A DNA stretch of 64,000 bases, taken from the NCBI GenBank assembly GCA_019186965.1, contig JABARV010000017.1, positions 124,001-188,000 on the forward strand, read 5' to 3'. The translations under genes were made by a program, and so were the position numbers. This document shows, in pieces, positions 16,617-16,900 of the stretch. A model generated the notes under the pieces. That model was not told the DNA's origin, searched no databases, and saw only the letters and a list, made by a program, of their open reading frames with translations. Source of the DNA: Turneriella sp. Its GTDB lineage: Bacteria; Spirochaetota; Leptospiria; Turneriellales; Turneriellaceae. Positions within the stretch are counted from its first letter, which is position 1, and every line of letters begins with the position of its first letter.

Positions 16617-16690
16617 TGCGAAATACTGGATTCGAACCAGTGACCTCTACCATGTCAAGGTAGCGCTCTAACCAACTGAGCTAATTCCGC
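16617..16690 (-). tRNA. tRNA-Val (anticodon GAC)
   Basis: On the minus strand the sequence folds as a full cloverleaf: acceptor GCGGAAT with ATTTCGC (one G-U), D-arm GCTC...GAGC, anticodon stem CTACC/GGTAG with loop TTGACAT, and T-arm ACTGG-TTCGAAT-CCAGT. Loop position gives anticodon GAC for valine. The 3' CCA is not encoded; the discriminator is A. The 5' end at 16690 abuts a 70-bp tandem array that contains copies of this gene's first bases. Confidence 0.97.
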
Positions 16691-16900
16691 GTTTATGCGG
16701 AATTAGCTTCCTCTAACCAACTGTGATCCATTGGGTCTCCGTCTTCGGTGCTAATTCCGCGTTTATGCGGAATTAGCTTCCTCTAACCAACTGTGACCCA
16801 TTGGGTCTGTGTCTTCGGTGCTAATTCCGCGTTTATGCGGAATTAGCTTCCTCTAACCAACTGTGACCCATTGGGTCTGTGTCTTCGGTGCTAATTCCGC
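16691..16900. repeat. 70-bp tandem array made partly of tRNA-Val 5' sequence
   Basis: Three head-to-tail units of exactly 70 bp follow the tRNA 5' end; the phrase CTAATTCCGC recurs at 16681, 16751, 16821 and 16891. On the tRNA strand each unit contains GCGGAATTAGC (tRNA positions 1-11) and CAGTTGGTTAGAG (D-arm), separated by foreign sequence. Each junction forms a perfect 11-bp hairpin, GCTAATTCCGC with GCGGAATTAGC around GTTTAT. A second palindrome, GACCCATTGGGTC, lies inside units 2 and 3, and unit 1 has GATCCATTGGGTC. Units 2 and 3 are identical. Confidence 0.95.

Follow-up and report, generated by a model that had tools for sequence, protein, structure and literature searches.

Why should an intact tRNA gene be preceded by a tandem array of pieces of itself, and what might such an array do to the tRNA? 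The question is raised by tRNA-Val(GAC) in the window analysed here (the whole 64,000-nucleotide stretch of a Turneriella sp. contig). On balance, we think it probable that the array is one example of a tRNA leader of the Turneriella clade that arose from the tRNA's own 5' end through fold-back template switching and tandem duplication, and that is predicted to affect tRNA maturation.

The tRNA-Val array and its predicted promoter

tRNA-Val(GAC) is flanked by an unassigned ORF, which ends at 16612, and by a glycine-dehydrogenase (gcvP) ORF, which starts at 16977. Upstream of the tRNA, positions 16680–16900 form a 70-bp tandem array of 3.2 copies that match at 98%. A first-pass annotation had described the 5' half of the tRNA as copied into such an array, and the period and copy number confirm this. 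Copies lie at 16680, 16750, and 16820, and the last is a partial one made up of its A segment only (Table 1). Read in the sense of the tRNA, each unit contains, in this order, segment A (GCGGAATTAGC, tRNA nucleotides 1–11), a double-hairpin cassette that we call E (ACCGAAGAC..AGACCCAATGG.TCA, with the core CCGAAGACGGAG followed by a second hairpin), a copy of the D-arm segment CAGTTGGTTAGAG, the trinucleotide GAA, segment A' (GCTAATTCCGC, the reverse complement of nucleotides 1–11), and the loop ATAAAC, after which the next A begins. (The plus-strand form of the D-arm segment, CTCTAACCAACTG, is found at 16666, 16711, 16781, and 16851.) The tRNA pieces, previously taken to be rearranged, in fact keep their order (1–11, insert, D-arm, inverted 1–11) and are only interrupted.

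Table 1 Features of the tRNA-Val(GAC) locus (positions in the window)
Feature	Position	Strand	Basis
tRNA-Val, anticodon GAC, intact	16616–16690	-	ARAGORN
Proximal array unit	16691–16760	-	sequence repeats
Proximal unit, A copy (nt 1–11)	16750–16760		
Proximal unit, cassette E	16724–16749		
Proximal unit, D-arm copy	16711–16723		
Proximal unit, A'	16697–16707		
Proximal unit, loop	16691–16696		
Middle array unit (anatomy as proximal unit)	16761–16830	-	
Middle unit, A copy	16820–16830		
Distal array unit (would be transcribed first)	16831–16900	-	
Distal unit, A copy (last, partial copy of the array)	16890–16900		
12-bp perfect hairpin, A' with the tRNA's own first 12 nt	16679–16708		
11-bp perfect inverted repeat	16750–16777		
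11-bp perfect inverted repeat	16820–16847		
Predicted tRNA promoter element TTGACGCCCTGT (-35 region)	16932–16943	-	genus motif

The annotation had also proposed three perfect 11-bp hairpins. There are indeed three and all are perfect, but the one on the gene side is 12 bp long and takes in the 5' end of the tRNA. Because this hairpin includes the first 12 nucleotides of the tRNA itself, the array does not simply adjoin the gene. Forward-inverted-forward triples of 9-mers within 130 bp are confined to two places in the window, and 10 dinucleotide shuffles yielded none. Like the copies left at tRNA attachment sites, the array consists of partial tRNA duplicates adjoining an intact tRNA; unlike them, it derives from the 5' part, lies upstream, contains inverted copies as well, and has no element between the copies, which are separated by 70-bp units only. 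The suggestion that the 5' end had served as an integration target found no support, since neither an integrase nor the anatomy of an attachment site was seen at the locus.

The motif TTG[AT]C[AG]NNN[TG]GT stands upstream of 93 of the 206 tRNA genes surveyed in the genus (see below), whereas it is found for 8 on the reverse complement and for 2 downstream. In the simplest tRNA genes the motif lies 39–44 nt from the gene, and in array-less Val(gac) genes of two related genomes the distance is 41 nt (G001) and 54 nt (G005, the complete Turneriella parva chromosome). For the tRNA-Val(gac) studied here it is 253 nt, that is, 43 + 3×70 nt, and at the CAU-anticodon tRNA of G001 the first A copy begins 39 nt past the motif. 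These distances therefore place the arrays between promoter and tRNA, with the first copy where the tRNA would usually begin. As judged from the predicted promoter, then, the array does appear to lie on the promoter side of the gene, as had been claimed, and no promoter was seen between array and gene. Because the conserved motif stands upstream of it, the array is most probably transcribed.

Leaders of the same layout in the Turneriella clade

A DNA search of the same genome (G000) uncovered a second locus, at a CAU-anticodon tRNA on contig C5, that shares the layout but is built from a sequence of its own. Here A is GGGCACATAGC and A' is GCTATGTGCC; the E cassette is present, and the D-arm copy is the same as that of tRNA-Val. 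(ARAGORN calls this tRNA as Met; its sequence resembles that of a tRNA-Ile with a CAU anticodon.) We then surveyed 206 tRNA neighbourhoods, at least one of them counted twice owing to overlapping loci, in seven Turneriella-clade genomes using RF00005 and ARAGORN, with expectations obtained by testing tRNAs against flanks belonging to other tRNAs. Nucleotides 1–12 of the tRNA were repeated, with two mismatches or fewer, within 200 nt upstream of 27 of the 206 genes when 1.3 were expected (a few of the copies with two mismatches may be due to chance), and the reverse complement was present within 60 nt upstream of 20 when 0.9 were expected. Among 53 control tRNA genes from other genera there were two forward copies (0.22 expected) and no reverse complements. 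All seven genus genomes have affected leaders, in which partial copies of the first 11–20 nucleotides of the tRNA stand in forward and inverted orientation, and 60-nt leaders with z < -3 make up 28% in the genus versus 8% in the control genera.

At the CAU-tRNA the leader core is kept at orthologous loci of G000, G001, G004, and G005, while the surrounding leaders do not align; the CAU-tRNAs of G002 and G006 have unrelated hairpins. At the Asn and Thr(ggt) genes of G005 the A copy and A' track the substitutions of the tRNA. Some leaders carry A' but lack E (for example Arg(tcg) of T. parva, G005, the CAU-tRNA of G003, and Ser(gga) of G006), and the Ser(gct) leaders of G000 and G002 contain a copy of about nucleotides 1–13 followed by unrelated hairpins. 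Near full-length tRNA copies, moreover, lie downstream of the intact genes for Arg(tct) (G004 and G005) and for Ala(tgc), Val(tac), and Arg(acg) (G005). They have E in the D-stem, and the T-loop, variable loop, or anticodon loop of several holds additional hairpins; in the genome studied here, Arg(tct) copies stand after Pro(tgg) where a contig ends.

The inserts had been regarded as foreign. That they are foreign and peculiar to the tRNA-Val locus found no support: E proves to be a structured repeat found genus-wide in copies of at least eight tRNA identities, and in these copies the CCGAAGAC-type cassette always follows tRNA nucleotide 11 or 12. Nearly all of 22 distinct cassettes share AGC(A/T)CCGAAGACGGAG, and the sequence of the second hairpin varies from copy to copy. 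Of the cells in the two helices tested, 95% are paired and 19 are changed on both sides; pairing falls below 40% once the partner is slid by one column. The covariation score, which was computed from related sequences and for a structure derived from those same sequences, is 0.261 compared to 0.059 in shuffles, and none of 500 shuffles reaches it; the variable parts have a mean folding z of -4.3. In a class-level scan all seven genus genomes matched, as did 1 of 41 genomes outside the genus, at a single site with no tRNA nearby. A wide scan of genome contigs with the AGCNCCGAAGACGGAG pattern gave, among the matches listed, mostly single ones scattered over many phyla. The core of E also occurs away from tRNA genes, and unit number and cassette length differ among leaders. 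(We rejected the idea that E at non-tRNA sites always lies within a larger palindrome, since 3 of 27 sites exceed the 95% level of the null when 1.35 are expected; nor did we find support for splicing of E as an intron, and an intact tRNA copy adjoins it.)

Rfam cmscan of nine leader loci, taken up to E = 1, gave no match to the leaders; the only hits were tRNA and, on the tRNA antisense strand and below the gathering score, a plastid ycf2 model. Such leaders were likewise not found in the titles and abstracts surveyed on Turneriella tRNAs, on palindromes in tRNA genes, on leader hairpins and RNase P, and on double-hairpin or palindromic elements.

Several further observations concern individual loci. 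The near full-length Arg(tct) copies of G005, G004, and G000 (L079, L087, and L072) combine the D-stem cassette with a two-hairpin insert in the T-loop, located at the same place in three species; they are not annotated as tRNA and are possibly a conserved structured RNA. At the tRNA-Ile(gat)/Ala(tgc) pair of T. parva (L256) a decorated Ile copy lies upstream and an Ala copy downstream, the latter with inserts in the D-stem, variable region, and T-loop and with its anticodon loop kept. Also in G005 (L025, C1:3757500-3758500), an inverted stretch of 30 bp that matches the tRNA-Val(gac) 3' end is situated ~100 bp beyond the gene and recurs about 40 kb away, a pattern that might have been left by an integrated element using the 3' end.

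Predicted folding and tRNA maturation

An RNA with this layout could adopt two alternative folds. In the first (S1), A would pair with A' inside the leader and the tRNA would be left free; in the second, trapped state (S2), A' would take the 5' strand of the tRNA and the upstream A would pair with the 3' acceptor strand. With one unit, the predicted energy gap (positive when the trapped state is more stable) is 2.5 kcal/mol for Val, and in G005 it is -1.8 kcal/mol for the CAU-tRNA, 0.6 for Asn, and 1.7 for Thr; for Arg(tct) of G006 the trapped state is favoured by 13.9 kcal/mol. The two states are thus no more than about 2.5 kcal/mol apart in four of five cases. In equilibrium predictions, which leave out modifications, proteins, and kinetics, the mean probability of the native acceptor is 0.10 for the 20 genes with A', compared to 0.56 for the other genes of the genus and 0.52 for the control genera.

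If real, an equilibrium preference for the trapped state ought to be costly to the cell. The order of synthesis, however, would favour S1 at first, in which case the leader would be tolerated, or would slow or modulate 5' maturation. An effect of the array on RNase P processing, raised in the first-pass annotation, is therefore plausible to the extent that the leader is predicted to sequester the 5' strand of the tRNA; the companion idea that the array hairpins serve as decoys gained nothing from the analysis. (An unusual RNase P was considered and set aside: a bacterial RNase P RNA is present, with a score of 198.5 bits.) Separately, in tRNA-Arg(tct) of G006 (L023) the gene's own 5' acceptor strand GCACACG has one mismatch with the 3' strand CGTGCGC, and the upstream copy GCGCACG pairs with that 3' strand perfectly.

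Origin of the leaders and rival explanations

Template switching is a documented origin of RNA hairpins (PMC8794818). In the account that we favour, fold-back template switching at the 5' end of a tRNA would have produced A-A'-A copies while leaving one tRNA intact, E, a genus-specific structured repeat, would have been placed in the D-stem of the tRNA copy, and slippage or unequal exchange would have multiplied the resulting 70-bp unit. As in the hairpins described in that study, a long perfect stem (11–12 bp at tRNA-Val), which a single event could produce, is formed by a reverse-complement copy of adjacent sequence, in forward-inverted-forward order; the leaders differ in that they recur at many tRNA 5' ends of one genus and hold a conserved structured cassette, and in that they are tandemly multiplied. 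Moreover, the nucleotides that close the leader recur ahead of the following A, as AATACGA at Arg(acg) in G004 and as AAAAAATG at His in G000, which is the trace that would be expected of a template switch resuming just upstream. Two features would be left unexplained by template switching alone, namely the placing of one cassette at a constant tRNA position in copies of many tRNAs and the conservation of the CAU-tRNA leader core across species, and these could reflect selection or a mobile cassette. The cost that trapping at equilibrium ought to carry also weighs against this account.

Selection could have shaped a cis-regulatory RNA, a bistable leader that sets the amount of its tRNA that matures and in which E would be the part recognised by a protein or another RNA. 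The invariant core and covarying second stem of the cassette argue for this, as do the conservation of the leader core at the four orthologous CAU-tRNA loci, the matching substitutions in tRNA, A copy, and A' at the Asn and Thr(ggt) genes of G005, and the near-isoenergetic folds. On the other hand, orthologues in sister genomes do without the leader (Val(gac) of G001 and G005 has no array, and the CAU-tRNA hairpins of G002 and G006 are unrelated), the number of units and the length of the cassette vary freely, the core is also found away from tRNA genes, and no ligand or partner is known. Because the cassette is conserved in sequence, position, and covarying structure, we regard selection of this kind as a minority possibility of some weight. 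A more specific version seems to us doubtful: that the leaders constitute a genus-specific class of RNA, each made of the 5' half of its own tRNA in both orientations plus the common structured cassette, in which a strand-exchange switch times the access of RNase P to the 5' end and so provides tRNA-specific control of maturation.

Alternatively, E might be a miniature mobile double-hairpin element that entered spare tRNA copies at their D-stem, in which case the arrays would be scars left as duplicated tRNA genes were hit by insertion repeatedly. Mitochondrial double-hairpin elements are short, consist of two consecutive hairpins, and are dispersed within one lineage. E resembles them in each of these respects, being two hairpins in succession with dispersed copies, but it is bacterial, its first hairpin is invariant and its second free in sequence, it occupies a fixed position inside tRNA copies, and its mobility is putative. 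Its restriction to the genus, its dispersal over tRNA and non-tRNA sites, its identical position in the copies of many tRNAs, and the near full-length copies whose D-stem, variable loop, and T-loop are interrupted by hairpins are all consistent with mobility. A', however, would be left unexplained, as would the leaders that have A' but no E, and neither a common insertion target outside tRNA nor an empty site was seen (with one genome per species). The bacterial REP and GTAG- and CGTC-tagged palindromes associated with Y1 transposases (PMC3733652) are likewise short and dispersed, but E differs in having variable stems and no common end tag: in the 22-cassette alignment neither GTAG nor CGTC was found at the cassette ends, the CCGAAGAC core being invariant and the second stem variable. 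Furthermore, the core of E is absent from the eight Y1-transposase loci examined (about 3 kb each), and we found no Y1 genes in G003 and G004, both of which carry E and are each about 82% complete. Mobility of E therefore strikes us as distinctly unlikely to be the explanation, and an artefact of assembly as highly improbable. Several genomes of the genus are fragmented, and one contig of the genome studied here terminates in an array of this kind next to an adapter remnant, but the same architecture is present in the complete T. parva chromosome (that of the type strain is 4,384,015 bp; PMC3746428) and recurs at orthologous loci in genomes that were assembled separately.

Concerning the contig end just mentioned, the sequencing-adapter remnant is GCTCTTCCGATCT, beside the tRNA-His array at the end of C10 (L089). 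The arrays probably broke the G000 assembly, and for this reason an intact tRNA-Arg(tct) may be missing from it.

Returning to the favoured origin by template switching and duplication, what the leaders could teach us depends on their effects. If they act on folding, they offer a natural, replicated test of co-transcriptional versus equilibrium folding of tRNA, and would show how RNase P copes with a leader that competes perfectly with the tRNA. If they are only mutational, they record with unusual clarity how template switching in a bacterium can build complex RNA structure beside important genes and yet leave an intact copy of the gene.

A protein-gene junction within the window is an independent, tRNA-free case of the same forward-inverted-forward logic. 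At 21761–22066 a 57/58-bp array spans the junction of a pmbA/tldD-family ORF (ending at 21777) and the next ORF (starting at 22066), and both genes are intact. The sequence GGGAGGCAGGTGA, which forms the end of the first gene and also stands ahead of the second gene's start codon, is present in six copies; the first five copies are each followed by an ACGAA loop and an imperfect inverted copy, and five are also trailed by a GAGCCATGGATGGCTTC-type hairpin. This case suggests that the array-forming process is probably general in this genome, tRNA 5' ends being one place where it occurs. In addition, a 57-bp array of 2.4 copies with a 100% match lies at 2825–2963 of the window, near the 5' end of the minus-strand ORF 1576–2991, and holds GGTTAGCAC / GTGCTAACC inverted copies.
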